A DNA stretch of 51,999 bases, from positions 1-51,999 of IMG/VR virus record IMGVR_UViG_3300045742_000120. The stretch is one strand, 5' to 3'. The number at the start of each line of letters is the position of its first letter. Positions within the stretch are counted from its first letter, which is position 1. Shown in pieces: positions 4,101 through 51,999 of the stretch. Below the pieces are notes generated by a model, which did not search any database, was not told the DNA's origin, and saw only the letters and a program-made list of their open reading frames with translations. Made by a program: the position numbers and the translations under genes. This DNA is from a virus.

Positions 4101-4909
4101 CTTTTCAGCAGATCGGTAAAAGCCTGGGTAATTTCCTTATCAACACTGCTGAGGATAGTGAGGCAGCCTTTAAACAGCTTGCCCAAGGCATTCTCGGCAC
4201 CGTCATTGACCTTATCGCACAGCAGGCCACCTTATTGGTCACACAAAGTTTTGCACAGCCTGACAGCGTTTTAAGTTTTGGTGCTACAGGGGCGACCCGT
4301 GTGGCACTGATCACCGGCCTTATACAAGGTGCTTCGTCGGCACTTAAAAATATCCTTACAGCAAACCTTAATGCTGAGGGCGGGGTGTTGCAAGGGGGTG
4401 GCTTTTTACGTGATGGAGGGGTGTTTGCAGGGCTTCCACACTCAGCCGGGGGTGTTAAGTTCCTGCTTAATACTGCATACGGGCCAAGCCTACAGGAAGC
4501 GGAGCTAAATGAGGCGATAATTTCAGCACCGGCAACAAATAAATGGAAAGGGCTTTTAAGTGCTATTAATTTTGATGGTGGGGCAAAGAGCTTTTCACCT
4601 GAAACGGGCAAGTACCTAAGCATCCTAAGAGGTATCAAGCCTACCAGGTATGCCACCGGGGGGCAGCTTGGCGGTGGTACCGGTAGCATCCCAATGTTAG
4701 TAGACCCGGCAACGGGGCGGCCAGGCGGTGCGGTGGCCACCATTCGCAGTGAGGATATGGAAAGCCTGGCTGTAATGGTAGCAGATCGTTTTAATGATGC
4801 TGGCAGCCAGTTTGCCGAAACGATAGTTGGGCGGGTGGTGGCTGGCCTTGATGAAAGCAACAGGTTAAAAGAACGGGAGGCATCGGCCTCAGCAAATGCA
4901 GAAATATAA
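1142..4909 (+). CDS. Tail tape measure protein
   Basis: At 1255 residues this is the longest protein in the window. The GTG start is the first plausible initiator. It has the tape-measure plan: an N-terminal coiled-coil part (residues 20-180), a very Gly-rich hydrophobic stretch (about 185-240, with runs of GGGG and a membrane-like segment), then long Glu/Lys/Gln-rich heptad coiled coil to about 1000, and a hydrophobic C-terminal patch (about 1010-1090). Such proteins set tail length and help DNA entry. At about 0.15 nm per residue it would suit a tail near 190 nm, so a siphovirus-like virion. Its stop overlaps the next ATG by one base (TAATG). Confidence 0.92.
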   Translation: MAVRKIAFSLEFEGSGVLTKQLAQVELDLGAIGNRLRDVRKDLNTFNTGTEEQRKALLDSGKSVQSLTNEYEKLRSQQIALQEDRKGVNREIRDQAKAFNELQNAIPEDSLIGLRTQYKQLRKEIDLLDEAGRQSAEGLAKITKASNIKQEILDIGKSVNDGREGVGLYTKALQDFFKLGGANGGAGGALSGVLGDIIGGGGPGGGGGGLGGAIGSLTTSLGPYAVAIGAVGGAVVQVGSYIVDVTKQFEELNSIVGNTTGLVGQELQDATVGIKTLADVFDKDFKEVLQAVNVVSKEFGEGLPASLEAVKIGLQAGADLQGNFLDSLREYSSEAERAGLSTDGFVEALVKFERAGIFGDRGADIINETETRITDFTDATRTSLNDAFGEEFTVTLFDQINDGTITAFEGVQRVAKGMQEGNLTAQQYARVTADLFGGIGEDASTAIEVIADLTGSTDGLIDSTDAYIRRQNAAIDATFELNQEQQLLAAQFAGTTFDLDTLTTKTKAFGTSLLNDLLFSFRAARKEISEGNIFQALFLTTDEDTIQGIKEEDAIALREIKEAEKEIADQRRESALEGTLGIQGLRAEQARLKQEIDDARVAGEDYSGLQQQLTAVTNNLSKATGVLNTNIQRTKAGYKELAAEGSIDQLSDRVRGLQQQISKASPNRALELIEELNRAELDLSAAKKEYDDFKESVREANIELLPIDEQVAIIEKQIALRRELELQAAQVRVSDEEQLLAEVALINAKFDKESSENRVRQYEEETADYVKLTGEISEATSNIKDLEIDVVVKGKEAALREAERLTEQALRAVFTSEEELQERIELLRLQTDSSSISTRLQLENLSADERFKLEVDLAEKTKQLKEAQAKVDIDFAARLAEIDVAERENTIIPEFNPDDIDATLEAIRAFENERTIIEQEAKVERLELERELLLRQGEETLEIEQQIAEETLKLEQEKNAGLIAEANKRAAAQAEFAKKVADAEEKAFQQIGKSLGNFLINTAEDSEAAFKQLAQGILGTVIDLIAQQATLLVTQSFAQPDSVLSFGATGATRVALITGLIQGASSALKNILTANLNAEGGVLQGGGFLRDGGVFAGLPHSAGGVKFLLNTAYGPSLQEAELNEAIISAPATNKWKGLLSAINFDGGAKSFSPETGKYLSILRGIKPTRYATGGQLGGGTGSIPMLVDPATGRPGGAVATIRSEDMESLAVMVADRFNDAGSQFAETIVGRVVAGLDESNRLKEREASASANAEI

Positions 4910-6105
4910 TGGCAATAACACAAATAAATTCCCCCTCAGTATTAAGCAATTTAGTTGCAAACCCCCTGCTATTTGAGTTCAGTATGTCGCCTGTGGAAAC
5001 GGCTACAGAATTCCGGAGGTTTGGCTACCAGCTATGTGATGATAATGATAAACCCATAACAGCGCAGGAGCTTATCACTGCTACCGATGGGGAGCCTTTT
5101 ACCATAGATTTCCAACAGGATGTTTGTGGTATTGTATACACCGATGTTCCAGATTGTAACAGCGCAATAAACAGCCAGCCGGAAATGGAAAAGGCTGTGC
5201 GGTTAAAAGTCTTTGAACACGTTTTTAATAAAGACACCTGCCAGATAACAATAGAAAACGAGGCTACCATTGGTGATTTTACGGTGCTTAATGCTGCGAA
5301 CCAATATTGGGGAAACCAGATTTTAGGGGCCGGTGGCTACCTGTGGCTGAACCCAATGCCTGCAGAAGTTGAACTGTGCCGGAGCCGGTGTCAATTGATT
5401 TACCTGTGGTCAACAGCCAACACCCCTATTGATATAACAGCCACCTCCTTTGCTGGTAATGACTATCAAATTAACCGGGCTAACGCCAGTGGGGTTAATG
5501 CCTTTTTGATAGACCCCGCTGAGCTTGCTGCCCTTATGAATGGCATCGAGGGGGCGACAACGGCTGAAAACTTAAAGCTGATAAATTATATTAGTGTGGT
5601 GGTTGATGGTATACTTTTCACCCGTTTTAAATTAGATACCTGCTGCTGCATTAACCGTATTGCCTGGCAGCATTCAGGCGGTGGGTATAGCTTTATGCAG
5701 TTTGACTGTGACCGGGAGCTTACAGTAGCCAGCAAGGGCAGTGAGGTTTACCGTTGGCAGGATAAGAACTTTGCTTATGAGCCATCGCTTAAGCGTACAA
5801 GGACAGAGGGGGGGCTAAGCATATCAGCACGAGAATCCTTTAAAAAGGTTAAGCTATCAAAAGTCATTGAAGCTGATAGTGACCGCGATTTACGCTATTG
5901 GGCTGACTTCCTAAGCAGTGGTTCTTATTATTTTGAATACCCCGTATTCCCTGGCAGCTATGCACCGGGGCCACCTAATTACCAGCTTATTAAGTTTATC
6001 CCGGATTATGGGAATATAAAATACCATGAGGAGGAAAAGTTTTTTACCCTCAACTTTTCCGGAAAGATAGCACAGCCACATCAAATGCCTAACTACGAAA
6101 TATGA
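4909..6105 (+). CDS. Putative distal tail protein
   Basis: A 398-residue protein between the tape measure and the large hub protein, the usual place of a distal tail (Dit-like) protein that joins tube and baseplate. It is beta-rich, with many Cys residues (for example LDTCCCINRIAW near residue 245) and no signal peptide or membrane segment. Its ATG overlaps the tape-measure stop by one base and its own stop overlaps the next start as ATGA, so the three are translationally coupled. The role comes from gene order; I see no diagnostic motif. Confidence 0.55.
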   Translation: MAITQINSPSVLSNLVANPLLFEFSMSPVETATEFRRFGYQLCDDNDKPITAQELITATDGEPFTIDFQQDVCGIVYTDVPDCNSAINSQPEMEKAVRLKVFEHVFNKDTCQITIENEATIGDFTVLNAANQYWGNQILGAGGYLWLNPMPAEVELCRSRCQLIYLWSTANTPIDITATSFAGNDYQINRANASGVNAFLIDPAELAALMNGIEGATTAENLKLINYISVVVDGILFTRFKLDTCCCINRIAWQHSGGGYSFMQFDCDRELTVASKGSEVYRWQDKNFAYEPSLKRTRTEGGLSISARESFKKVKLSKVIEADSDRDLRYWADFLSSGSYYFEYPVFPGSYAPGPPNYQLIKFIPDYGNIKYHEEEKFFTLNFSGKIAQPHQMPNYEI

Positions 6106-9100
6106 ACAGGTGTCTAAGCATAAGGCTAAAGAATAAACCGAGTTATGAATATTGCCAATCATACAGGGTAACGGCTAATGAGGACGGTACCGGTGCCGGT
6201 GTTATGACCCTGCTATGTGGTGGGGCTATTACGCAAAGCGTATGGATTCCAGCAGGCGAGGAAAGGGTTGTTTGTGCGGCCTTTGGTGAGGTACCTACAA
6301 AGACAAACGGCACCTCATCAATACAAGCTTTATTGATAGGGGTATGCACTGATGAGAATAGCGCAGCACAGGATGACCCTGTTTATTTTGACCTGCCTGT
6401 GGGCTTTTCGCTAAGGGAAACAAAAAGGCTGACGGAGCTTACTGAGGTGCAAACACTTAAGTTTACCTATAGCCTGGGCTTTGATATGCCGCCAACAAAA
6501 AAGAACCTTGACCTAATAAAGACCCAATTCAACCCCAATGTATTAGATAATAATTATGCTGAATTAGAGGTTGAAGTTACTGCTGGCAGCCATATTATCA
6601 GTGATGCACAGCTTTATGTAAGCAAATGCACGGAGGATAAGATTACTGCTGAGCTAAGGTTATCTGTGAACCATTGGGCACGGCTGGCAAAGAGCCTGCT
6701 TTTACGTGACCTGCCTTATGCTGAGGTTACTTATGGCTGTGCCCTTGTGACTGATGTTATTGTCAATCAATACCCTTACCAGCTATCCAGCAACTTTAAT
6801 GACCCGGCAAATTTGGGCATTTGGTTTCCTTATGTTGATTACAGTAGGATGGTAAGAGATACCACAACACCGGGCAGGAATAATGACTGGCTGCTGCCCG
6901 TTTGTTATGCCCGACCGTGGTACTATGTGACGGGGCTGCTGCAGCGTGGCTTTTGTGCTTTAGGTTGGGGCTTTACCTCCCCGCTGTTTGAGAGCGAAAT
7001 AGGGCGCAAGCTGATAACCTACATAATGGACAAAGGTTACGGGCTTAGCGGCCAGGTATATGAGCAGAGGCGTAACAATTTAAACACCAAAGCAAACACC
7101 GTTGGCGATGCTGTTATTACCCTGCAGTATGGTAATGTTATTGGTTCGATATGGTGGCCAAACATCACGGAGGATGCTGTTGGTAACCTTGACCCAAATA
7201 CCGGCTTTTATTCTGCCTGTGGGCAGGTTAATGTAAGGGGCAAGGTGACGATCGGTGGTGTCACAAATAGCAGCAGGGTGGAGCTACATATTGGCAGGCT
7301 AAGGCCACAGGCAGGGTTCGGGGCTGGCCAGGGTTCCTTCTCTTTTTCCCCTTTGCTTAGCCGGGAGTTTACCGACCCTAGCGATGATATCGAATGGGAG
7401 TTTGAGCTTGAAAATATTAGCATATCCAGTGAGGAGCAATTGGGGGTAATTGTGGAAAGGGCGGGCACGGGGCTGCTGCTGCTACGTGATGAATCTTATA
7501 TTGAGTTTGAAGGTGTTAGACCATATCCTAGCGAGGGTGATGCTGAAAGCCTGCAAAATATGATTGATGGGGATTACACCTTCCTGGACTTGCTGAAAGG
7601 CGTGGCACACCAATTCAACCTAAAAATTAAAACTGATTTTAGCAATCGGACGGTGGAGCTATACCAGCCATATCGGGCTGATATGTGGGGCGAAGATATT
7701 GAGGGCTACTATATTGAGGAAACCATTGAAAATATCGACGCAAAGCTTAACCCTAAGAGCAAAGAGGTAACACTACCCGATACCGAACAGCCCCGCTTTT
7801 TAACCCTTAAGTATGCTGATACTACAGATAAGGGTATTGATGAAATGGAGCTTAAAAATCCACTGTGGAGCCGGGTGGTGGACTTAGGGGAAAAGTTTAC
7901 AGTAAAGGAAAGCAAGGATATAGAAAACCCTTTCTTTGAGCCTACGCTAAACCGGAGCGCACGGTTTAGTAATTCCTTTGGCATACACATTCCCACCATT
8001 GCCGGTGAGGGTGAATATACATTTGATGTCGGGCCGAGGATAGCGATAGCCTTTGGCCATGTTATACAGGAGTTAGATAATGTTAATAACCCCCGGCTGA
8101 GGCTTTGCACTTTTGCTGCTGCTCAGAGCGAACTGATACCGACTGCCAGTATGTTTGCCCCTGTAAAGTTAGGGGTGACGCATAATGATGCTAATAGCGT
8201 TGCTGAATTCCCATTAGCTAATTTGGCCTATGGTATTAACAGTGAGGTAAGCACCATTGAGCCGGAGGCTACCCTTTATGACATTGTATACCGGAGGTGG
8301 TTATTAGAGCAGATTAATAACCTTAAAATCGAGTACCTGTTAGACATTAGCACGTATGATTATAGCAGGTTTGACTTCCGTGGTGTATATCGCTTTTCGC
8401 ACATGGGGAGGCCTATTGTTGCCCGTATGCAGGAAATTAAAGACTATAGATATTGCCAGAAGCTACAGACCCCTATTGTCTTTATTCCGGAAAGGCAATT
8501 GTCAGATGTTTGCCTGCTGCTGCCACCGGGCGGTGGTGGTGATGGTGATGGTGCTAACTGTGAAAATAACCCGGTTATAATAGTCAACCAAGTATCACAA
8601 AGCAATTACCTTTTTTTAATCGGGGGGCAAAATAATAGCCCCATTTCTAGTGCTGTTTTCGAGTACAGCACAGACGGGGGCACAGTATGGCAGTTGGTAC
8701 CACCGGTGACCCCGTTTACTGCACAACTAAGCCCAATTATTGTTGATTTTCTTGTACGAGCGACGGTGAATTATGCTGTTGTTCAGGGGGTAGCCTGTCC
8801 ATCTATATTACTTCCACCAAAGCCAGTCACCCCATGTCCTGTATTTAATTATGAACTGATATGTGAGAATGTGACAATATACGACCCCAATTCACCGAAT
8901 GAGGCTGTAGGGGCTGTAAGGGTAAGCACAGAGCTTCCACTTGGGCAGAATGTAATTGTTGTCAGCTCACAGTACAGAATCGGTGGCGGTCAGGTTCAAA
9001 ACTACCCTGTAAGTATAGTTAACAACTTACTTCAAGGGGTAAGTATAGCCGGTGGCCCAACAGTACAATTCCTAATCACCTTAAGGACACCACCGTGCCC

Positions 9101-9473
9101 CGCAATATCCCTCTCTATTACTTGCAATGTAATTGAGCCACCTACTCCGGCTATAGATTGCGACCAAATAAAAATGGATTTATTTTGTGTTGAGGACAGC
9201 CCCGGCTGTTGGGTTTTTAGCCGTTCCGGTTTGTTGTTTGGTGAAAATGATAATTATATAAAATACCAGTGCAGTGTTGACGGGGTTACATACGGGCCGT
9301 GGCTGCTGTGGGATGAGGTGACACCTATATGCTGTAATTATATTCGTGCCAGGTGGTGGGCTGTATTCTGTGACGACCAGTGCCCAACAAAATGCAGCCC
9401 TGTTATTTCATGTGAAACAAATTGCCAGCCCTTTGAGTATGGCACTATCGTTGACCCTGCACTTTGCAATTAA
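6102..9473 (+). CDS. Tail hub / baseplate protein with C-terminal Cys-rich domains
   Basis: An 1123-residue protein, third in the coupled tape measure-distal tail-hub series (ATGA overlap). The first 800 residues are a mixed globular region without Cys clusters, as expected for a tail-associated hub. After a Gly/Asp linker (PPGGGGDGDGAN, about residue 808) come at least three beta-sandwich-like segments with paired Cys, similar to those in the 10162 gene. This suggests a hub with receptor- or glycan-binding decorations. The hub call rests on order and size; the C-terminal domains look like Ig-like adhesive modules of Bacteroidota. Confidence 0.6.
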   Translation: MNRCLSIRLKNKPSYEYCQSYRVTANEDGTGAGVMTLLCGGAITQSVWIPAGEERVVCAAFGEVPTKTNGTSSIQALLIGVCTDENSAAQDDPVYFDLPVGFSLRETKRLTELTEVQTLKFTYSLGFDMPPTKKNLDLIKTQFNPNVLDNNYAELEVEVTAGSHIISDAQLYVSKCTEDKITAELRLSVNHWARLAKSLLLRDLPYAEVTYGCALVTDVIVNQYPYQLSSNFNDPANLGIWFPYVDYSRMVRDTTTPGRNNDWLLPVCYARPWYYVTGLLQRGFCALGWGFTSPLFESEIGRKLITYIMDKGYGLSGQVYEQRRNNLNTKANTVGDAVITLQYGNVIGSIWWPNITEDAVGNLDPNTGFYSACGQVNVRGKVTIGGVTNSSRVELHIGRLRPQAGFGAGQGSFSFSPLLSREFTDPSDDIEWEFELENISISSEEQLGVIVERAGTGLLLLRDESYIEFEGVRPYPSEGDAESLQNMIDGDYTFLDLLKGVAHQFNLKIKTDFSNRTVELYQPYRADMWGEDIEGYYIEETIENIDAKLNPKSKEVTLPDTEQPRFLTLKYADTTDKGIDEMELKNPLWSRVVDLGEKFTVKESKDIENPFFEPTLNRSARFSNSFGIHIPTIAGEGEYTFDVGPRIAIAFGHVIQELDNVNNPRLRLCTFAAAQSELIPTASMFAPVKLGVTHNDANSVAEFPLANLAYGINSEVSTIEPEATLYDIVYRRWLLEQINNLKIEYLLDISTYDYSRFDFRGVYRFSHMGRPIVARMQEIKDYRYCQKLQTPIVFIPERQLSDVCLLLPPGGGGDGDGANCENNPVIIVNQVSQSNYLFLIGGQNNSPISSAVFEYSTDGGTVWQLVPPVTPFTAQLSPIIVDFLVRATVNYAVVQGVACPSILLPPKPVTPCPVFNYELICENVTIYDPNSPNEAVGAVRVSTELPLGQNVIVVSSQYRIGGGQVQNYPVSIVNNLLQGVSIAGGPTVQFLITLRTPPCPAISLSITCNVIEPPTPAIDCDQIKMDLFCVEDSPGCWVFSRSGLLFGENDNYIKYQCSVDGVTYGPWLLWDEVTPICCNYIRARWWAVFCDDQCPTKCSPVISCETNCQPFEYGTIVDPALCN

Positions 9474-9484
9474 AAAAAGTAGAA

Positions 9485-10153
9485 ATGAGCTGTATAAAAA
9501 CCTTTGATGATAATGGCACTACCGGGCTTTTTAGTGGTGGCCCGTGGAGTAATAACGGGATTGTGGAATACGTTGGTTATTCCACCGTATCCACAGGCCC
9601 TTTCGGGGCAGGAGGGAATTGGCCGTGGGCGACTAATGTATGGGGGGCAAGTATAGACACAACGGGGATAAATGAAGGCTTTTACCAGTTAAAATATAAA
9701 AGCACACTTAGCCCCGGCGACCCTTGCTATGGTGAGGTGGTGTTTGTTATTGCTATTGCTCAGGGTACTGGTGCAGCACCGGCCACACCTGTTGAAATCA
9801 GTATGTGTTCAACTGATGTAATTAGAAACATATTCAATGACAGTGGCCTTTTTGCTGCTGCTGCTGTTAACCCCATCCTACAGTCTTTGTCCGGGGCAGG
9901 CATAAGCTCTCCGGGCTACAGTGCAGGCAATGCAGGTATAAACGATGATAGTTACGACCCTTCACAGGAGGTGAGCTATCCTGCTATAGTGCAGTTTGAT
10001 ATTACCTATACACCACAGCCACCCGCTGGCTTCACACTGGACGGGTGTACCAATTGTGACCCGGTGACAATATCTGTTATCTATACAGTTACGGAAAGTT
10101 TTGAGATTGGCACGGTGACACCTGTGGCAGTCTGTAATGATGGCGATATATAA
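9485..10153 (+). CDS. Short tail fibre / receptor-binding protein
   Basis: A 222-residue protein starting at ATG 9485; a TTG at 9464 in frame overlaps the upstream gene and is less likely. Its N-terminal part is homologous to that of the next gene: both carry the residues GPFGAGGNWPWATNV, encoded by a 46-base repeat with one mismatch. Downstream matches continue (GYSAGNAG versus GSYNAGNL; PPAGFTLDGCTNCD versus PPGYTLDGCDQCN). The shared block is probably a virion-attachment or beta-sandwich module. This gene stops where its paralogue continues for 800 more residues, so it may be a short fibre or a duplicate. Confidence 0.5.
   Translation: MSCIKTFDDNGTTGLFSGGPWSNNGIVEYVGYSTVSTGPFGAGGNWPWATNVWGASIDTTGINEGFYQLKYKSTLSPGDPCYGEVVFVIAIAQGTGAAPATPVEISMCSTDVIRNIFNDSGLFAAAAVNPILQSLSGAGISSPGYSAGNAGINDDSYDPSQEVSYPAIVQFDITYTPQPPAGFTLDGCTNCDPVTISVIYTVTESFEIGTVTPVAVCNDGDI
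9594..9639 (+). repeat. 46-bp direct repeat, copy 1
   Basis: Matches 10253-10298 at 45 of 46 bases; the single difference is G/A within GGAGGGAATT versus GGAGGAAATT. It encodes GPFGAGGNWPWATN in both fibre genes. Identity at the base level exceeds that of the flanking paralogous coding sequence, so the copies are recent or homogenised by recombination. Confidence 0.9.
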
Positions 10154-10161
10154 AACAAACT

Positions 10162-13100
10162 ATGAATTGCATACTTGATATATTCGATACCTTTTTAAGC
10201 GGCACTACAGAGGGCGGCGAGTGGGAAGTTGTTGGCTTTTCGCTTAACCCTGCAGGCCCTTTCGGGGCAGGAGGAAATTGGCCGTGGGCGACTAATGTGG
10301 TAGACCATGTTGCTGTAGATTTTACAAACATACAGCAGGGTTATTATCGCCTAAATTATTTTATGCCTGGCGATTGTGGTGGCCAGGTAGGTGTAACTAT
10401 TCCCGTGGTAGGCAGTGGTAATGCTGGTGCAAATTCAAGTATAGTAGTATGTTCAGATAGTGGGTTGGTGAACATTGCTGACGAGTTAGGGGCTATTTTT
10501 GATGCTGGCATTTTACAGGCTGGCTTTACAATTGCGGGCAGTGGCACAGCTTCCGGTTCCTATAATGCAGGCAATTTAAATACCCCATTGGATGATACTT
10601 TTGACCCTTCGACTGCTGCTGTTGGGTTTTATCAGTTCATTTTAACCATAACACCACAAACACCACCGGGCTATACACTGGATGGGTGTGACCAGTGTAA
10701 TGAAACAATAGCAACGTTAAACATAGAGGTGTCGGTTTCCTCTGTATCAATTGCACTGGCCGGCTGCTGGCTGTACCTAGACAGTCAGCAAGGCTGCTCA
10801 GGAAGCACAATACAAATTCAAAAAAGGCCCGCAGCAACTTGGATTAACGTAGCAGGCAGCTTGCCTTATCAAGTTGACGAGGATGCTGATTGGAGGATTA
10901 GAGCTATAGGTTGTGATTGTGCCGGGGCTATCGTTTCAAATATTGTAACATCTTCGGGGTGCTGCACAGATAGCCCTGATTTTGTTATTGAGCAGGGGGT
11001 AGGGTTACCCTGCTTTATACTTCGAACATCTGGAACACCTTGCGCCGGTGGTACTTACAGGTGGGAAAAAAGTTGTGATAATGGGCAGAGCTGGATTGCT
11101 GCCCCTTATGGTGATACCGATCAGATAAGCATTGGTGATAATTGTTGGTATCAACTTATAAGGGATTGTCCAAGTGGCTGTGAGCAGCGGTCTAATGTTT
11201 TACAAATTAATAATTGCTCAGGCAGTTGTAACGGGAGTCTGCAAGCTGTAGCAAACGGCTGTAATTTAGATGTAAATACGGGCGTTATCTGCTCAGGAAC
11301 GGGAACCTTTACGCTACAGCAGGATATTAATGGGACATATACAAATGTCAGTACCTTGCCTTATAGTGGCTACCCTGTAAGCTTTCCTATTTCACAAAAC
11401 GGCACCTATAGGGTGTCTTTAGATTGTGATGGTGATAACTGCTCTTTATTTTTTAGTGCAGGCGTTCTTTTTAGCAATTGCGGTGGTGCGCCGGTATGCA
11501 ACAGCACACTAAGCTTGACACTTAATGAGTGTACTATTACAGCTAATATTACTAATTGTCCTAACCCGTTTATTGTATTTAAAAGCCTTGGCAGTCAGGT
11601 TCAGTCAGGCTCAAACCCTGTTTATAATGCTTTAGTAAACGGGCTGCATACTGTTGAGGTTTACAACTGTCCAGACTGTGGTGTGTTAAACGATGGGGTG
11701 AACGTGTTTGCCTGTAATACAGGATGCTCATCTGGCTTAACTGCTACGGCTAACGGGTGTCTAGTCACTGCCAGTGCTACTAATTGTCCATCACCAACAT
11801 ACATCTTTAAGCAAGGTAATACAACACTGCAGTCGGGGCCGTCAAATACCTATTTACATCCCACTGAGCAGAGTGTTACAATAACAGTGCAGGTGATTGG
11901 CTGTCCTGGATGCAGCACTATTGAAACCTTTGTGCAGATAAATTGTGTTAATTGTAATTGCTCAACAGGCATAACAAATACCAATTGCGAACTTTTTGCT
12001 AATGATGTGGGGTGTAGCGGTTATGCTGCACAATGGAGGTATTTTAACACCAACACATCATCATGGGAGGTAAAGGGCACCGGGGCAAGCATCGTGCCCG
12101 ATGAGAATGGACTTTGGCAAAGGCGGCTAACAAAATCGGGCTGTGCGGATGTTACGGAGCAGATAAATGTTACTTGCCTGGCAACACCCTGCACACTTGT
12201 TTTCAATAGCGCTGAGGTTGATTCCGGTGATTGTAACCAGATAATATTCACCTACCAGGGTGCTATTGCTGATAATATTACACTGTTGCTTAATTATAAT
12301 TTAGCAGGCACTAGCTGTGGCACAGCAGGTGGGTGGGCAAGCTTTAGCCCTGCTGCTGGCAGTTCGTTTAATTACCTGCCCAATGGTACCGGCTCAGGTA
12401 CTATTGTTGTGCCCCCTTCATTGGTGGGCAAGTGTATAAGGCTAATATTGATTGATAATGATAACGGAGGCTGTGCGGCGATAGAGGAGCGCGTTTTCTT
12501 CCCTGCCTGCTGTGATGCTACACCGAGCATACAAGCTACCGGCTGTGCCCCTTATACGCTTTCGGTTATCAATGCACCAGGCGGCTCCACTTACATGTGG
12601 TCAACAGGCGGCACAGGCAGCAGCATTGAGGTTTATGATGGCACCTTTACTGTCGCTGTTATGGATGGTGATTGCGTCTATAATTTGGGTGTTTCTGTTA
12701 CCTGCTGTGCTGACCCCTGCCAGGTTAATTTCCAAAGGTGTGTTCATTATAACTGGCTTAATGCTTTAAGCCAGGGCACGACTATAAATTCATATATCAC
12801 AAAATTTGCAATAAACGGCTCAAACTTATACGGCACACCACAGGTGATGCAGTGGTGGCCGTCTGTATTTGTGCCCGGCTCTGGTAATACAGTAATAACC
12901 AATCCAAGCCTGGTCAACACACTGAATTTTTTGTCAAATAATTTAATGGCTTTTGAGCTTGCTACCTTTGCAGACTATGGCACTTGTTTTAATACCCCAC
13001 CAGTGGCCAGTGCTTTTCTCGGCCTGCTAAGAATATGGAGGAGCACTTGCGTCACCTCTTTTGAGATAGTAATAGCCTTAACACCTGGAAGCCCGGTGTT

Positions 13101-13245
13101 TGGTGCAGGCACATACAGGTACACACAAAACGGGCTCGAGGTGTTTTTAAATGGTATATGGTCGCCCGCTGATGCAGCTTATGGAACGACCTACATGATT
13201 GATAATGGGCCGTGTGGTTGCGGCTTAATAGATTTATGCGCATGA
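10162..13245 (+). CDS. Large Cys-rich adhesin-like tail fibre
   Basis: A 1027-residue protein. Residues 1-195 match the previous gene. The rest is a string of beta-rich, Cys-paired segments like those of Bacteroidota surface adhesins. Two neighbouring copies are clear: CNSTLSLTLNECTITANITN (from about residue 443) and CSSGLTATANGCLVTASATN (from about residue 522), each ending in a C-P-x-C motif. The protein lacks a signal peptide, which fits a virion part rather than a host-surface protein. It most likely binds the receptor. Its stop overlaps the start at 13242 (ATGA). Fibre function is inferred from position and architecture. Confidence 0.6.
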   Translation: MNCILDIFDTFLSGTTEGGEWEVVGFSLNPAGPFGAGGNWPWATNVVDHVAVDFTNIQQGYYRLNYFMPGDCGGQVGVTIPVVGSGNAGANSSIVVCSDSGLVNIADELGAIFDAGILQAGFTIAGSGTASGSYNAGNLNTPLDDTFDPSTAAVGFYQFILTITPQTPPGYTLDGCDQCNETIATLNIEVSVSSVSIALAGCWLYLDSQQGCSGSTIQIQKRPAATWINVAGSLPYQVDEDADWRIRAIGCDCAGAIVSNIVTSSGCCTDSPDFVIEQGVGLPCFILRTSGTPCAGGTYRWEKSCDNGQSWIAAPYGDTDQISIGDNCWYQLIRDCPSGCEQRSNVLQINNCSGSCNGSLQAVANGCNLDVNTGVICSGTGTFTLQQDINGTYTNVSTLPYSGYPVSFPISQNGTYRVSLDCDGDNCSLFFSAGVLFSNCGGAPVCNSTLSLTLNECTITANITNCPNPFIVFKSLGSQVQSGSNPVYNALVNGLHTVEVYNCPDCGVLNDGVNVFACNTGCSSGLTATANGCLVTASATNCPSPTYIFKQGNTTLQSGPSNTYLHPTEQSVTITVQVIGCPGCSTIETFVQINCVNCNCSTGITNTNCELFANDVGCSGYAAQWRYFNTNTSSWEVKGTGASIVPDENGLWQRRLTKSGCADVTEQINVTCLATPCTLVFNSAEVDSGDCNQIIFTYQGAIADNITLLLNYNLAGTSCGTAGGWASFSPAAGSSFNYLPNGTGSGTIVVPPSLVGKCIRLILIDNDNGGCAAIEERVFFPACCDATPSIQATGCAPYTLSVINAPGGSTYMWSTGGTGSSIEVYDGTFTVAVMDGDCVYNLGVSVTCCADPCQVNFQRCVHYNWLNALSQGTTINSYITKFAINGSNLYGTPQVMQWWPSVFVPGSGNTVITNPSLVNTLNFLSNNLMAFELATFADYGTCFNTPPVASAFLGLLRIWRSTCVTSFEIVIALTPGSPVFGAGTYRYTQNGLEVFLNGIWSPADAAYGTTYMIDNGPCGCGLIDLCA
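10253..10298 (+). repeat. 46-bp direct repeat, copy 2
   Basis: Second copy of the 9594-9639 repeat, inside the large fibre gene. The two copies lie 659 bases apart in the same frame. Recombination between them would fuse the start of the short fibre to the body of the long one. Confidence 0.9.
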
Positions 13246-36871: not shown

Positions 36872-36880
36872 ACAACAGGT

Positions 36881-36909
36881 GCCTGCCTGGCTACCGGGCA
36901 GGCACCACC
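36881..36909 (+). promoter_or_regulatory. Strong intergenic hairpin, GGTGCC family
   Basis: GGTGCCTGCCTGG pairs with CCGGGCAGGCACC (13 pairs, one G-U) around a three-base loop, right after the stop of the gp3-like gene (TAAACAACAGGTGCC). No T-run follows; the next gene has an A-rich leader. Likely an mRNA processing or stability element. Confidence 0.6.
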
Positions 36910-36923
36910 AAAACAAACAAACG

Positions 36924-38072
36924 ATGAAAGAAGCATTTGAAGCGCGAAAGCTAGACGGTGAAATAAACATAAAGCTAAGCGCAGGCAGGCGATGGTCTGC
37001 TGATAAAGCAACAGTCTGCAGCCAGATTATTACAATTGTTGAAAGATATGCTGCATTGGGTTACCGGCTTACTTTGAGGCAGCTTTATTATCAATTGGTA
37101 GCTGCTGACTATATACCGAACCATGATAAAGTATACAGCAAGCTAAGCAGCATTTTAGACGACCTCCGGTATTCCGGGAAAGTAGATTGGGCAGCAATTG
37201 AAGACCGTGGCCGGGTACCTTATTTGCCTTATTGGGTACATAGTATTAAAGATGCGCTCGATGATACTGCCAGCCATTACCGGCTCAACAGGCAGCAGGG
37301 GCAGGACACTGTTATTGAGGTGTGGACTGAGAAGGATGCTATAAGTGGCATTTTAAAGCGCATTACCACCAAGTTTCATGTTAATTTGGTTGTGAACAAA
37401 GGCTACTCTAGTTCCAGTGCTATGCACAAGGCTTACCAGCGTTTTGCAGGCTACATAAATGAAGGTAAAAAAGTTATTGTTTTATACTTTGGTGACCATG
37501 ACCCTTCTGGCCTGGATATGGTGCGGGATATTTACAGCAGGATTATGTTTTTCTTAGCAGCCGGTGACCTTTTAGATACTGATGACGGAACCTTAATTGG
37601 GGGTAAGATTATTGAGTGGTGGCTAGATAATGACTTGCAAGCTATGCCCGATGAGTGGCTGGCTGCTGCTGAGTATGTTATTGCATATAACAACGGTGAA
37701 AAATCTTCCTACACTAAGTTTGCTAAGTGTATGCTAGAATATAACAGGCTAAAAAACCAGCAGTTTATAATAGAAAATAACCTTTTTGTGGTGCAGCCTA
37801 TTGGCTTGACTATGGAGCAGATAGAGGATTTTAACCCACCACCAAACCCGGCAAAGCTTACTGACCCCCGTGCTAAATGGTATGTTGAACAATTTGGTGA
37901 TATATCCTGGGAGGTTGATGCTATTGAACCCACAGCGATGGAAAAGATTGTGGAGGATGCTATATTGGAAATAATAGACGAACAGCAGTACCAGGGTGTT
38001 TTAAGCAGGGAAAAGAGGGAGCGTAATTTCATCCTTAATGTTGCCAAAAAATATGATAATGAGGAGGAGTAA
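36924..38072 (+). CDS. TOPRIM protein related to Spo11/TopoVI-A
   Basis: A 382-residue protein; start ATG 36924 follows the hairpin and an A-rich leader. N-terminal wHTH-like part with LTLRQLYYQLVAADYI (49-64) and KLSSILDDLRYSGKVDWAAI (73-92); then the TOPRIM core: VIEVWTEKDA (130-139) with Glu132 or Glu136, and VLYFGDHDPSGLDM (186-199) with Asp191 and Asp193. In TopoVI-A and Spo11 such residues bind metal for strand cleavage by a Tyr in the wHTH (Tyr55 or Tyr56 are candidates). It may nick DNA for replication or recombination. No TopoVI-B partner is seen. Confidence 0.7.
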   Translation: MKEAFEARKLDGEINIKLSAGRRWSADKATVCSQIITIVERYAALGYRLTLRQLYYQLVAADYIPNHDKVYSKLSSILDDLRYSGKVDWAAIEDRGRVPYLPYWVHSIKDALDDTASHYRLNRQQGQDTVIEVWTEKDAISGILKRITTKFHVNLVVNKGYSSSSAMHKAYQRFAGYINEGKKVIVLYFGDHDPSGLDMVRDIYSRIMFFLAAGDLLDTDDGTLIGGKIIEWWLDNDLQAMPDEWLAAAEYVIAYNNGEKSSYTKFAKCMLEYNRLKNQQFIIENNLFVVQPIGLTMEQIEDFNPPPNPAKLTDPRAKWYVEQFGDISWEVDAIEPTAMEKIVEDAILEIIDEQQYQGVLSREKRERNFILNVAKKYDNEEE

Positions 38073-38369: not shown

Positions 38370-39200
38370 ATGGCAGAGAATACGAAAATAGAATGGACAG
38401 ATCATACGGTGAACTTGTGGTGGGGCTGCACTAAGGTAAATGCAGGTTGTGATAACTGTTATGCTGAACACTTAAGTGACACCCGGTATAAAAATGACCT
38501 GTGGGGCGAAGGGGTGCCCCGTAAAGCGATTAAAAGCGCACTGCCTACCCTTAGTAAGCTGCAAGCTAAAGCAGCGGACAGGGGTGTGGTAGAAACGGTT
38601 TTTATGAGTTCCATGTGTGATATCTTTGAAAAGTCAAAGCCACTGATAGACCATAAAGGGGTGAAGCTTGGTTTAACCACCGGCGACCTGAGGAACGAAT
38701 TGTTTTTTAACATTGGTGAAGGCTGCTACCCTAATTTAATATTCTTATTCCTTACCAAAAGGCCGAGCAATATTAATAAGATGGTTCCTGCAGTATGGTT
38801 ATTTAACCCCCCGGACAATGTGGTATTTGGTGCCTCAGTAGCAAACCAGCAGGCTGCAAATGATGTAGCCCGGCACTTTAAAGGGGTTACCGGTAAAAAG
38901 TTTTTAAGCGTGGAGCCGATGCTTGGAAAAATAGGCTTAAGCCCTTTTGTTGATGTGGCAATGGATTACAATAAAGCAATTACTAAAATGCTGGTCGATT
39001 GGGTTATTGTTGGCGGTGAAAGTGGCGACAACAAAAGGCCGTTCGACCCTAATTGGGCACGGATTATAAAAGGCTTTTGCAGTGTTACAAAGACCCCGTT
39101 TTTTATGAAGCAGTGGGATAAGGTGCAGCCAATACCTGATGATTTAATGATAAGGGAGTTTCCGGAATACCTTATTGATGCAAAGCCACCAAGTTTATGA
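38370..39200 (+). CDS. DUF5131 (phage Gp37/Gp68) family protein
   Basis: A 276-residue protein with the family's N-terminal signature: WTDHTVNLWWGCTKVNAGCD followed by NCYAE, giving Cys20, Cys27 and Cys30 (C-x6-C-x2-C), likely an Fe-S or radical-SAM-like site. Later parts fit too: LFLTKRPSNI (about 125), GASVANQ (about 150), SVEPMLG (about 176) and VIVGGESG (about 211). Widespread in phages; the reaction is not established. Confidence 0.85.
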   Translation: MAENTKIEWTDHTVNLWWGCTKVNAGCDNCYAEHLSDTRYKNDLWGEGVPRKAIKSALPTLSKLQAKAADRGVVETVFMSSMCDIFEKSKPLIDHKGVKLGLTTGDLRNELFFNIGEGCYPNLIFLFLTKRPSNINKMVPAVWLFNPPDNVVFGASVANQQAANDVARHFKGVTGKKFLSVEPMLGKIGLSPFVDVAMDYNKAITKMLVDWVIVGGESGDNKRPFDPNWARIIKGFCSVTKTPFFMKQWDKVQPIPDDLMIREFPEYLIDAKPPSL

Positions 39201-46065: not shown

Positions 46066-46650
46066 ATGATTTTATCATTTTCTTCTAAGTGGCCAGGTGG
46101 CCATCCTACTAACTTTTTCAAGATGATACGGGCAGGGCAAAAGCCCCAAACCATACGCAAGGGTGAACGGTTTAAAGCCGGGGATAAGGTGCATCACTGG
46201 ATGGGCAGCCCACGGCAAAAGGGCAGGGGTTCTTATGCTTTCAGTTTACCATTTATAAAAGCTGACTTTTGGTATTGTGACCACGATACGATAGCGGAAG
46301 GGGTTTACAGCCCCGATGAAATGAATGCCCTTTTCCCTGAGTGTGATACGGTGCCACATTTTGTAGCTGTGCCACTGGTTTATGCTGTTGAGCATATTAG
46401 TATTTACCACCCACGGACAGGCGATAAGCACGTTAAGATAGGCAGCCAGGAGTTAGATGAAAAGGAGCTTAAAAGGCTCATTGTCACCGATGGCTTTGCC
46501 TGGGGTGAAGCTTTTACGGGTGTTAATGCTGTTGATTTGTTTTGGTCGTATTTTACCCCTGAAAGGGCATCATATTTCAAAGGGCAGATAATACACTGGC
46601 AGGAGGGTAACCTATATAATGCGGACGAGGCTGATATCATTGACCTATGA
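46066..46650 (+). CDS. ASCH-domain protein
   Basis: A 194-residue protein. IRAGQKPQTIRKGERFKAGD with KVHHWMG (21-47) is the ASCH signature (I-x2-G-x-K-x2-T-I-R ... G-D), and DGFAWGEAF ... DLFWSYF ... IIHW near the end matches phage ASCH proteins. The PUA-like fold binds RNA or modified nucleobases, which fits a phage that may carry modified DNA. Coupled to the next gene by ATGA. Confidence 0.7.
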   Translation: MILSFSSKWPGGHPTNFFKMIRAGQKPQTIRKGERFKAGDKVHHWMGSPRQKGRGSYAFSLPFIKADFWYCDHDTIAEGVYSPDEMNALFPECDTVPHFVAVPLVYAVEHISIYHPRTGDKHVKIGSQELDEKELKRLIVTDGFAWGEAFTGVNAVDLFWSYFTPERASYFKGQIIHWQEGNLYNADEADIIDL

Positions 46651-48769: not shown

Positions 48770-49399
48770 ATGGTAAAAGATAGGATTTTAAAGCTTGAAA
48801 AAATAGACTGGAACAAGCTGCATTCCCTGCAGCCGGATAATATAAAATCTAGCTTTTACCGGGAGCGGCTAAGGCATTCGATTAATAAATATGGTATTGC
48901 CCGGCCTTTTGCAGTATGGGAAAGCGAGGGGGTAATTTATTCCATAGATGGGCACCAACGCAAAGATGAGCTTAACAAAATGATCGCTTCCGGGGTTAAG
49001 ATACCTAAAAAGCTATCGGCCTATTTTATAGATGCAAAGGATAAGGAGGAAGCCATTAAAATCCTGCTAGAAGTATTTAACCAGGAAACATCCCAAATGG
49101 ATGAAGCGGTGCTAAACGAATGGCTGCAGCAGGTAGAAGATTTTGACACCACTGACATAGACTTTGATGTTTTAGACGTGAAAGTGGATTACGCTTTTAA
49201 GGGTAAAAATTATGATGGCCTTGACCAGCTTTCAAAGCTTGACAAGTTTATGGGGGCAGAATTAAAAAGGCTATTCCTAGTGTTCAGTTCAGGGGAATTT
49301 AACAATGTCGTCGAGTGGTTCAAAATGCTTAGGGAAAAGCATTCAGTCGATGATAATTCAAGCGTCATATTAAAACTAATGGAAAATGAAAACCTTTAA
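48770..49399 (+). CDS. ParB-N-domain protein
   Basis: A 209-residue protein with the ParB N-terminal fold: RLRHSINKYGIARPFAVWES (33-52) and YSIDGHQRKDELN (57-69), where DGHQR replaces the usual G-x-R-R box. This fold binds nucleotides and is found in nucleases, sulfiredoxin-like enzymes and phage modification systems. The C-terminal half (about 130-209) lacks the ParB helix-turn-helix, so plasmid-type partition is unlikely. Next to the dioxygenase and terminase genes, it may act on modified or unmodified DNA. Confidence 0.7.
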   Translation: MVKDRILKLEKIDWNKLHSLQPDNIKSSFYRERLRHSINKYGIARPFAVWESEGVIYSIDGHQRKDELNKMIASGVKIPKKLSAYFIDAKDKEEAIKILLEVFNQETSQMDEAVLNEWLQQVEDFDTTDIDFDVLDVKVDYAFKGKNYDGLDQLSKLDKFMGAELKRLFLVFSSGEFNNVVEWFKMLREKHSVDDNSSVILKLMENENL

Positions 49400-49541
49400 T
49401 TTAATTAAAACTAAAGACTGCAGCAGCCTGCTAAAAGAAACCCCCGTGGCGGGTGATTATAGTGTACTTATAAATGAGGACACCCTATTTATAAAAGGCG
49501 GTGACTGTTGGCCTTTACATAAATATATCAAAGCTTTTTAA
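49386..49541 (+). CDS. 51-residue protein between ParB-like and dioxygenase genes
   Basis: ATG 49386 overlaps the previous gene by 14 bases; the ORF ends at TAA 49541, seven bases before the dioxygenase ATG. The product starts MKTFNLIKTKDCSSLL and ends KGGDCWPLHKYIKAF; two Cys. Perfect fit into the gap and coding-like composition support it. Function unknown, possibly a partner of the dioxygenase. Confidence 0.6.
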   Translation: MKTFNLIKTKDCSSLLKETPVAGDYSVLINEDTLFIKGGDCWPLHKYIKAF

Positions 49542-49548
49542 CCCGGAA

Positions 49549-50229
49549 ATGCTTAGGGGGGTTGTACGTACTACAAAGACAGTGAAAACCTACAGGACAA
49601 ACGCTTTACCAACAGAATCAAGTGTTTTCGGGGCACTGCCCCGGAACGCAATACGGAATGATTACTGCAGGTTTGCTGCACAGACGCAAACGGAAAAACA
49701 GAATGCAAGGATATTATTTTCCTTCCTGGATGTGCTAAATGGTATTTATGAAAAGCACCTGCCAGGCCATTACAAAAGGGATAAAGACCTTGTCGCTGAG
49801 CAGGTGATTGGTGATTTTATGCTAAAAGAAAGGCAGCCTTATTCTACTGTAAATGTAAATGTAAACCATGCAATAAAATACCACCGGGATAGCGGAAACT
49901 TTAAAGGGAATATGAGCAATGTCTTGGTCCTTAAAGAAGGGTTAAAAGGTGGTGAGCTAGTGTTCCCGGAATATGGCTTTGCACTATCTCAAAACGATTG
50001 CTGGCTTTCCATATTTGACGGGCAGGGGGAAATACATGGTGTGATGCCAATATTTGACAACGGCACGCGCAGAAAGCCATACCGGGCCAGCATCGTTTAC
50101 TATACACTCGAACAGTTAAAACACTGTTACCCTTATAAGCAGGAAATCGAAAGGCTCAAAGTTGTTTCAACAGAAAGGGCAGAAAAAAGGGCTGCAGGTA
50201 TTAACCCGTCACAACAGCTTAAAAAATAA
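49549..50229 (+). CDS. Fe(II)/2-oxoglutarate dioxygenase, TET/JBP-like
   Basis: A 226-residue protein. I choose ATG 49549 over GTG 49501, which lies inside the 51-residue gene. The double-stranded beta-helix ligands are visible: KYHRDSGN (His112, Asp114), GGELVFPEYGFAL (about 140-152), EIHGVMP (His163), and RASIVYY with Arg179 to bind 2-oxoglutarate. The short H-x-D-x-G-N and the FPEYG motif point to TET/JBP, which hydroxylate the methyl of thymine or 5-methylcytosine in DNA. Phage members start DNA hypermodification. A prolyl-hydroxylase-type enzyme is the main alternative. Confidence 0.75.
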   Translation: MLRGVVRTTKTVKTYRTNALPTESSVFGALPRNAIRNDYCRFAAQTQTEKQNARILFSFLDVLNGIYEKHLPGHYKRDKDLVAEQVIGDFMLKERQPYSTVNVNVNHAIKYHRDSGNFKGNMSNVLVLKEGLKGGELVFPEYGFALSQNDCWLSIFDGQGEIHGVMPIFDNGTRRKPYRASIVYYTLEQLKHCYPYKQEIERLKVVSTERAEKRAAGINPSQQLKK

Positions 50230-50916
50230 GTGCCAAAAAAGAAAACAGACATACAGGCTAAAGTACCTACACAAGCTATCGAGTATGATGGCCAGCTATA
50301 CGAATTGCCTATTGTATCAACTGGCATGGAATTAACAGATGAGCAGAAAGCACCTATTATGGAGCTTATCTGTAAGATGTATGCCACCGGCCAGCATTCG
50401 GTAAAAAATTGCTGTGACGCAGTAGGTATATCAACATCATCGTTTTACTATTGGCGTAAAAATAACGGAGAGTTCGGACAGCTATTTGTAAAAGCAGCAG
50501 AGGCAGGGAAAGCAGGGTTTAAGGAATTGCTCCATGAGGCCACCAAGCGCACAGCCTTAAAGGTTATGAATGGCGAGTTTGTAAGGGAGCTAAAGCGTAC
50601 CGAAAAGATATACCAGCAAGGGGCAGACGGGAAGCCTATACTGGCAGCAATGAAAACGGTATCGCAAGAACAGTGGCTCAGGCCATCTGCTGCCTTTATA
50701 AGTTCAATGCTTGGTTTAGCTGAGCCGGAAAGCTACAGCCGGGAGCTAATGCTGGAAGAACGGTTAAACGGTGCTACCAGCAGTGATATGAAAGCAATAA
50801 TAGAAGGGCTTACCATTTATGATGAGCCGGACGATAACGCCACAGTAAAGCCACCACTAACAAGTGAACAGGATGCCAGGGAGTACGGGCTGAGGCTTAA
50901 GCCACCCAAAAAATAA
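50230..50916 (+). CDS. Putative terminase small subunit
   Basis: A 228-residue protein with GTG start directly after the dioxygenase stop (TAAGTG). A helix-turn-helix (HSVKNCCDAVGISTSSFYYW, residues 55-74) is followed by a helical part (FVKAAEAGKAGFKELLHEA), as in small terminases that recognise the packaging site. The large subunit is not in the window. An alternative is another phage HTH regulator. Confidence 0.6.
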   Translation: MPKKKTDIQAKVPTQAIEYDGQLYELPIVSTGMELTDEQKAPIMELICKMYATGQHSVKNCCDAVGISTSSFYYWRKNNGEFGQLFVKAAEAGKAGFKELLHEATKRTALKVMNGEFVRELKRTEKIYQQGADGKPILAAMKTVSQEQWLRPSAAFISSMLGLAEPESYSRELMLEERLNGATSSDMKAIIEGLTIYDEPDDNATVKPPLTSEQDAREYGLRLKPPKK

Positions 50917-51006: not shown

Positions 51007-51216
51007 ATGTATAGTTTAACCTTTACCCCTCGCAGCGTTTATGATGCCACCCTGTTTCGGGAAATTATAGCAAGCAGCGAATTTCATGCCACCTGGGATG
51101 CCCGTGACGGGTGCTTTTGGTTTGAAGAAAAAGAGGACACCATTGATGAGCTAGAGGCAGCCCTGCAGGAGCTTATTGACCAGAAAAATATTAACGGCTA
51201 CTTTGAAGCCGAGTAA
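51007..51216 (+). CDS. Small acidic early protein
   Basis: A 69-residue acidic protein behind an early-type promoter and a double A-rich leader. C-terminal helix is rich in Glu and Asp (KEDTIDELEAALQELIDQ). Not recognised. Confidence 0.5.
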   Translation: MYSLTFTPRSVYDATLFREIIASSEFHATWDARDGCFWFEEKEDTIDELEAALQELIDQKNINGYFEAE

Positions 51217-51258: not shown

Positions 51259-51999
51259 ATGCAAGCGACAGCAATTAAAACTAAAAATGAGCGGGTATTT
51301 GACCTGCTATGTGATGGGAACCTAAACTGGCAGGTAGATAAAATACAGCTGCCTGCACCACAGGTAGACTTTTATGACCATACCGGTGAGGTGTACGAAC
51401 GGCCAAAGGCCCACGGGATTTATGTAGGGAAGCAATACCTGGCCACCGTTGGTGATGGCTATACGGTAGCACAGAACAGCGAACTGGCAGAGATATTTAT
51501 TACTGCCCTGGATAACGTAGGTTTAGAGTGTGAAACAAGGGCGGGCCACCTATGTGGTAAAAGAAAAATTTATATGCAGGCTGCCTTACCTGACCGCATT
51601 GTAGGCCCTGACAAGCTTAACAGGTACCTTTCAGTATTAAACAGCCACGACGGGAGCAGTGCTGCAGCATTTGGCAGCAGCAGCACCGTGGTAATGTGTC
51701 AAAATACTTTTTACAAAGCTTTTGCCGGTATGCCAAAAGTAAACCACACCAAAAGCGTACTGGATAACATACGCAAAACGGCTGAGGGCATAAATAAGGC
51801 GATGGCTGCAGAGCTTGGTTTAATGCGCAGCTTTGATATAATGGCACAGGAAATGCTCACCAAGCAGACGGTAGGTGGCTTAATTGACGAACTGTTTGGT
51901 GTTGGCATAGACGATGATATGACTGAGCTTAGCACCCGCAAGCAAAACCAGATCAAAGCCTTTGCCAAAGCTGTAAAGCAGGAAACGTCACAGGACAGG
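51259..51999 (+). CDS. DUF932-like protein, 3' end cut by the window
   Basis: ATG 51259 follows AACAAACAATAACAAAAC plus a short spacer; the frame is open to the last base (247 codons). Residues fit the DUF932 phage/plasmid-like family: YVGKQYLATVGDGYTVAQNS (about 55-74), then LSVLNSHDGSSAAAFGSSST (about 122-141) and VVMCQNTF (142-149). Found in many phages and plasmids, often near replication genes; biochemical role unknown. Full length in the family is near 350-400 residues. Confidence 0.75.
   Translation, partial: MQATAIKTKNERVFDLLCDGNLNWQVDKIQLPAPQVDFYDHTGEVYERPKAHGIYVGKQYLATVGDGYTVAQNSELAEIFITALDNVGLECETRAGHLCGKRKIYMQAALPDRIVGPDKLNRYLSVLNSHDGSSAAAFGSSSTVVMCQNTFYKAFAGMPKVNHTKSVLDNIRKTAEGINKAMAAELGLMRSFDIMAQEMLTKQTVGGLIDELFGVGIDDDMTELSTRKQNQIKAFAKAVKQETSQDR

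Follow-up and report, generated by a model that had tools for sequence, protein, structure and literature searches.

The usual interpretation of phage TET/JBP units is that they start the synthesis of bulky DNA bases that resist restriction. A clade of such units that appears, from profile searches, to have no recognised decorating gene nearby raises the question of whether 5-hydroxymethyluracil (5hmU) made in DNA is itself an end product and, given the weak protection it affords, for what. We analysed one member of this clade in the 51,999-base virus record IMGVR_UViG_3300045742_000120; this whole stretch is referred to as the window. The features relevant to the question are as follows.

48770..49399, + strand: ParB-N-domain protein, 209 aa (PHROG ParB-like; HMM of relatives; family profile; model)
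49386..49500, + strand: N-terminal part of the TET/JBP gene (collinear with one-ORF relatives; ParB overlap; predicted fold)
49490..49510, + strand: apparent frameshift, one extra base or two missing (DNA alignment with relatives L002–L004)
49501..50229, + strand: catalytic part, TET/JBP Fe(II)/2-oxoglutarate dioxygenase (PF12851, PDB profile, structure matches)
50230..50916, + strand: small terminase subunit (TerS) candidate (phrog_4044/1482/4102, weak; TerS position in relatives)
51007..51216, + strand: 69-aa ORF between the TerS candidate and DUF932 (open reading frame)
51259..51999, + strand: DUF932 protein, cut by the contig end (PF06067, 76 bits)

The TET/JBP gene and its neighbours

The product of 49501–50229 matched PF12851 (Tet_JBP) at 62.2 bits, against a gathering cut-off of 34.9, and this was the only Pfam family matched. 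When a profile of 51 homologues was compared with the PDB, TET2 ranked first (1.5e-5) and CMD1, NgTet1, and CcTet were also matched. Structure matches of the model (Foldseek/VIA) were headed by TET2 (Z 19.5), NgTet1 (18.8), CMD1 (17.7), and CcTet (16.8), the first non-TET folds being ALKBH3 and FTO at Z about 14–14.6. The HxD...H ligands of Fe(II) and the Arg for 2-oxoglutarate are present, as is the GGELVFPEYG motif pointed out in the original prediction; H112, D114, H163, and R179 of that prediction correspond to H166, D168, H217, and R233 of the full-length reading described below, which show no variation in any group, across about 245 phage homologues. The match to PF12851 above the cut-off and the first place of TET2 by profile and structure bear out the TET/JBP-flavoured Fe(II)/2-oxoglutarate dioxygenase originally proposed. 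Prolyl-4-hydroxylase, whose appearance as best match had been named as evidence against this proposal, was absent among the listed profile and structure matches (by structure, TET2 at Z 19.5 versus 14.6 for the first non-TET fold), and a distant kinship could still exist. It is very improbable that the protein is a 2-oxoglutarate oxygenase of another branch, such as a prolyl-4-hydroxylase or an AlkB/FTO-like repair enzyme: the double-stranded beta-helix fold is common to all of these and ALKBH3 and FTO do show up at Z about 14, but the four TET-type proteins come first with a clear margin in both rankings, and Pfam offers nothing besides PF12851. Judged by its family, modelled fold, and ligand residues, the 49386–50229 product is a TET/JBP dioxygenase. 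JBP1/JBP2, TET1–3, NgTet1, CMD1, and CcTet share the fold and the Fe/2OG ligands (tested against TET2, NgTet1, CMD1, and CcTet) but, unlike the window's enzyme, are eukaryotic and have extra domains attached.

The full TET gene extends over 49386–50229 and is frameshifted in this contig. The ‘51-residue protein’ (49386–49541), previously taken for a separate gene, is not a gene of its own: the frameshift has severed it from the TET enzyme, whose N-terminus it forms. L002–L004 contain a single 276-aa ORF with a closely similar start (MKTFELNKIRNCENLIKQTPSKNDYTTLINEDTLF...) that runs on into the catalytic domain, most of L016–L058 have an unbroken ORF from MKTFEL... through the catalytic domain, and a single ORF of ~275 aa is found in nearly all of 80 viral relatives. 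Around 49504, the window is two bases shorter than the DNA of L002–L004, which has the effect of a one-base shift, and a single shift near 49497 restores a protein of 280 aa. The predicted structure of this full-length reading has a mean pLDDT of 90.9; its first 40 or so residues (pLDDT about 96) supply strands of the predicted fold. The start of TET overlaps ParB by 14 nt in the window, and the same overlap was seen in 32 of 36 scorable relatives.

A programmed frameshift was rejected; it is needed by no relative, and inspection by eye revealed no slippery motif. The break would fit a true mutation as well as an assembly error. As assembled, the window's TET gene is broken, which counts against the explanation preferred below. 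It is nevertheless rather unlikely that this copy is dead or decaying, i.e. that the break is a true mutation and no enzyme is produced. The reading frame breaks at about 49490–49510, and the lost N-terminus would, in the model, belong to the fold; however, nothing else in the protein, including the catalytic set, is damaged, the ParB overlap is preserved, the relatives have unbroken TET genes, an assembly error of one base would look identical, and the TET gene of L021 is likewise split, but elsewhere in the gene.

The upstream product (48770–49399) matched the HMM of its relatives (E 2.7e-29). In Pfam, PF02195 (ParB_N) was matched by 37 of 38 aligned relatives, the window's protein alone giving no match, and a tblastn search of the phage collection with this protein also gave none. 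The profile of the ParB-partner family matched solved ParB/Noc proteins (ParB, 1.8e-13), and the N-domain of the model, which is only moderate (pLDDT 71.6), matched ParB/Noc/sulfiredoxin in Foldseek, with ParB/Noc first. The C-terminal segment (about residues 150–209) is conserved and common to the ParB partners of other phage TETs. Through the relatives' HMM, the fold, and the 14-nt overlap, the protein was confirmed as the ParB-N member of one unit with TET, as the original prediction held. ParB-N proteins have DNA-binding and nucleotide-binding folds, and the overlapping start suggests that ParB and TET are co-translated and act together.

The small terminase expected after TET is represented by the 228-aa product of 50230–50916, which is small-terminase-like, but its PHROG match to terminase small subunits is weak (E 8.7e-6). 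The notion that the 46066 protein is an ASCH reader found no support: the product of 46066–46650 matched nothing in Pfam at E<=5 and, among PHROGs, only phrog_8581 (unknown), and the 26 other TET-bearing records that were searched contain no relative. Elsewhere in the contig, 38370–39200 and 36879–38072 contain a DUF5131 protein and a topoisomerase-like protein (phrog_6247).

No terminal repeats were found in the 51,999-base record, and an HMM built from the relatives found no large terminase (TerL) anywhere in it. Because the contig end falls inside the DUF932 gene (51259–51999) and TerL is missing, the contig is a fragment, and a decorating gene could therefore sit out of view. The scan with the whole Pfam library covered the contig except five large tail/structural ORFs (1142–13245), which received targeted whole-record searches. 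Bacterial genomes scanned with the clade alignment yielded zero relatives and hence no host evidence; the major capsid candidate of the window had no match among phages, and its DnaB occurs too widely to point to a host.

Relatives and decorating genes

Scans of viral contigs with single proteins gave 3 and 1 loci, and scans with alignments gave 80 each. The set of close relatives comprises 51 loci, whose TET proteins are 41–66% identical to that of the window. ParB lies directly upstream of TET in 46 of these, and TerS and TerL are present within the contigs of 49 and 48, respectively; the median gaps are −14 nt between ParB and TET and 5 nt between TET and TerS. A sigma-like HTH protein and a protein of 120–140 aa recur near ParB in 18 close relatives (e.g. 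L051:8283–8816 and L050:1540–1926). Upstream of ParB, L002, L004, and L041 contain glycosyltransferase-like and methyltransferase genes, including GT-like, GT2-like, Methyltransf_24, and HNH genes at L002:48–2879 and L041:1767–3807, and L002 also has an ATP-pyrophosphatase-like gene in this region. This upstream set of a few close relatives may serve DNA decoration or act at the cell surface.

Decorating enzymes were profiled over all loci, namely the 5hmU kinase (PF18751), ADDT (PF18724), the TET-associated glycosyltransferase (TAGT, PF20691), and a deacetylase. None of the four was found in the window or in any of the 51 close relatives (many of which are short contigs, and the profiles see recognised families only), whereas decorators occur in 22 of 29 sister loci, 64 of 80 actinophage-type loci (16/80 are without one), and 76 of 80 Nonlabens-type loci. 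When only loci with a 1.5-kb flank on both sides and matches inside this flank were counted, the numbers were 0/26 for the close relatives versus 18/21, 37/56, and 50/57 for the three other groups. A tree of 136 representatives places the window inside a clade of 32 with a support of 99 (SH-aLRT, a quick method); decorated representatives number 0 of 32 in the clade versus 89 of 104 outside it. As the lack of decorators concerns one clade, it counts as a single evolutionary event only.

The kind of unit is known, because annotated phages share the same gene frame: arrangement and chemistry are of the type of the ParB-TET-[transferase]-kinase-terminase units of actinophages, which are regarded as candidates for thymine hypermodification. 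In Rhodococcus phage Tonitrus, the order is ParB, TET, ADDT (PF18724), P-loop kinase (PF18751), and terminase, and Mycobacterium phage Prince, Gordonia phage LittleMunchkin, and phage Ottawa are similar. The units of Tonitrus, Gordonia phage CaiB, LittleMunchkin, and Prince resemble the window in the upstream ParB-N gene, the pocket signature, and the downstream terminase (in the window, the weakly matching TerS candidate), but differ from it and its clade in having the PF18751 kinase and the PF18724 ADDT, and their TET proteins are only about 25–30% identical. The CaiB and Tonitrus units have been described as likely to serve base modification or thymine hypermodification (PMC9302106, PMC11955845). 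Many mycobacteriophage TET/JBP genes (gene 2; L007:785–1759) are named ‘queuine tRNA-ribosyltransferase’ in RefSeq, as is PHROG 6059, which looks like a mislabel.

Units with TAGT (PF20691), e.g. that of Arthrobacter phage Lilmac1015 and those of the sister clade L064–L092, also carry ParB and TET together. The sister clade has ParB, TET, TerS, and TerL in order, with TET 28–35% identical to the window's, but in many units of both kinds a glycosyltransferase, be it TAGT or another, separates ParB from TET or adjoins TET; the window has none. The unit of Microbacterium phage Matzah (ParB-TET-small protein-terminase) is as short as that of the window, with no kinase or transferase between TET and terminase; its TET, however, is an actinophage enzyme of a different TET clade. 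What is new is a clade of 32 that keeps the hydroxylase unit, none of its members having a recognised decorator nearby.

5hmU could still be an intermediate only, the decorator lying in the unsequenced part, belonging to an unrecognised family, or being supplied by the host. We regard this as a possibility of some weight, though not as the expected case. Outside the clade decorators are the rule, the contig is a fragment without TerL, and GT-like genes lie upstream in three relatives. On the other hand, no known decorator lies between or beside ParB and TerS, the usual place elsewhere, in any of the 26 full-flank relatives, and whole-record searches of the longer clade records found no TAGT or GT2 over the cut-off, no PF18751, and no ADDT. 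The same holds for the 52-kb contig, incomplete as it is, in which searches gave no PF18751 5hmU DNA kinase, no ADDT/aGPT-Pplase transferase (PF18724), no PF20691 TAGT, and no PF00535 glycosyltransferase.

Substrate and product

The original prediction had seen neither a glycosyltransferase nor a cytosine C5-methyltransferase in the window, and neither was found in the contig. Its suggestion that thymine may be the substrate, or a simple hydroxymethyl base the product, fits the lack of C5-methyltransferase and decorators. The C5-methyltransferase search (PF00145) of the 52-kb contig, which is incomplete, gave no match, and such a gene was present in only 3 of 50 records; on these grounds a 5-methylcytosine (5mC) substrate is disfavoured. 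A thymidylate-synthase-like gene, which a nucleotide-level route would use, was found neither in record G000 nor in 26 others. The window's enzyme shares the pocket signature Y165/N171/S177/L241 with the actinophage enzymes encoded beside PF18751 kinases and ADDT transferases, whereas the Nonlabens-type pocket differs from that of the window (D171, R241). In the latter group (L009:8698–9561, L173–L252), TAGT is present in 61 of 80 loci, and its substrate may differ. After the stacking aromatic residue, TET2 and NgTet1 have a His, taken to contact the base, where the window's family has Leu. N171 aligns with an Asn of TET2, a 5mC enzyme, so base contacts cannot be read from the sequence and the argument built on them carries little weight. 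Taken together, the lack of a C5-methyltransferase and of a thymidylate synthase, the pocket, and the Leu would favour thymine.

That the enzyme instead acts on 5mC made by a host or phage methyltransferase, yielding 5hmC, is unlikely. Phage TETs accompanied by a C5-methyltransferase and glycosyltransferases have been reported (Burke et al. 2021, as cited in a passage of PMC12730594), N171 is shared with TET2, and the records of L047, L052, and L053 include a C5-methyltransferase, within 1 kb in L047. Nevertheless, the gene is missing from the window's contig and rare among the relatives (3/51 loci), and Leu replaces the His mentioned above. Two cytosine-C5-methyltransferase matches also occur in the L024 record (52 kb; G008:40896–44023), >30 kb from TET.

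The proposed product is the base that stands in for T in Bacillus phages SP8 and SPO1. In these two phages, 5hmU is supplied by the nucleotide pool and replaces T throughout (PMC6449724). The window's clade would instead form it within the DNA; the search for a thymidylate-synthase-like gene gave no match. SP8 DNA, which is fully 5hmU-substituted, resists only about 8% of the Type II enzymes tested (PMC7653180), and bare 5hmU would accordingly be a weak protection.

A proposed role for the unit

The explanation we favour, with some reserve, is that a tailed phage here carries a DNA-modification unit of two genes, in which the TET/JBP enzyme oxidises thymine to 5hmU, possibly the end product, with the help of ParB. 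With Fe(II) and 2-oxoglutarate bound, the enzyme would oxidise a pyrimidine of the phage DNA at its C5-methyl group; most likely this pyrimidine is thymine and the product 5-hydroxymethyluracil. Hydroxylation would follow replication of the phage DNA and precede its packaging. ParB-N, whose gene overlaps that of TET, is probably translated together with it and would help bring the enzyme to DNA, perhaps loading TET. Since no recognised enzyme that could build on the hydroxyl is encoded nearby, 5hmU itself may be the final base. Its purpose could be the evasion of restriction or the marking of DNA for packaging or transcription. The activity, thymine substrate, ParB role, end product, and purpose are what we infer from these comparisons.

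Given the weak protection expected of bare 5hmU, either the protection in nature is directed at other enzymes, or a decoration has escaped notice, or the mark has a different purpose. As one form of the last, bare 5hmU might be a mark, with ParB directing site-specific oxidation and the adjacently encoded terminase or the transcription machinery reading it; we consider this distinctly improbable. A precedent is phage P1, in which pac cleavage is controlled by adenine methylation (cited in a passage of PMC6449724), and a packaging role for a 5hmU mark is offered by analogy, as a hypothesis only.

Under the two-gene explanation, the about 50 related compact enzymes, possibly active on unmethylated DNA, may be tools for making 5hmU.
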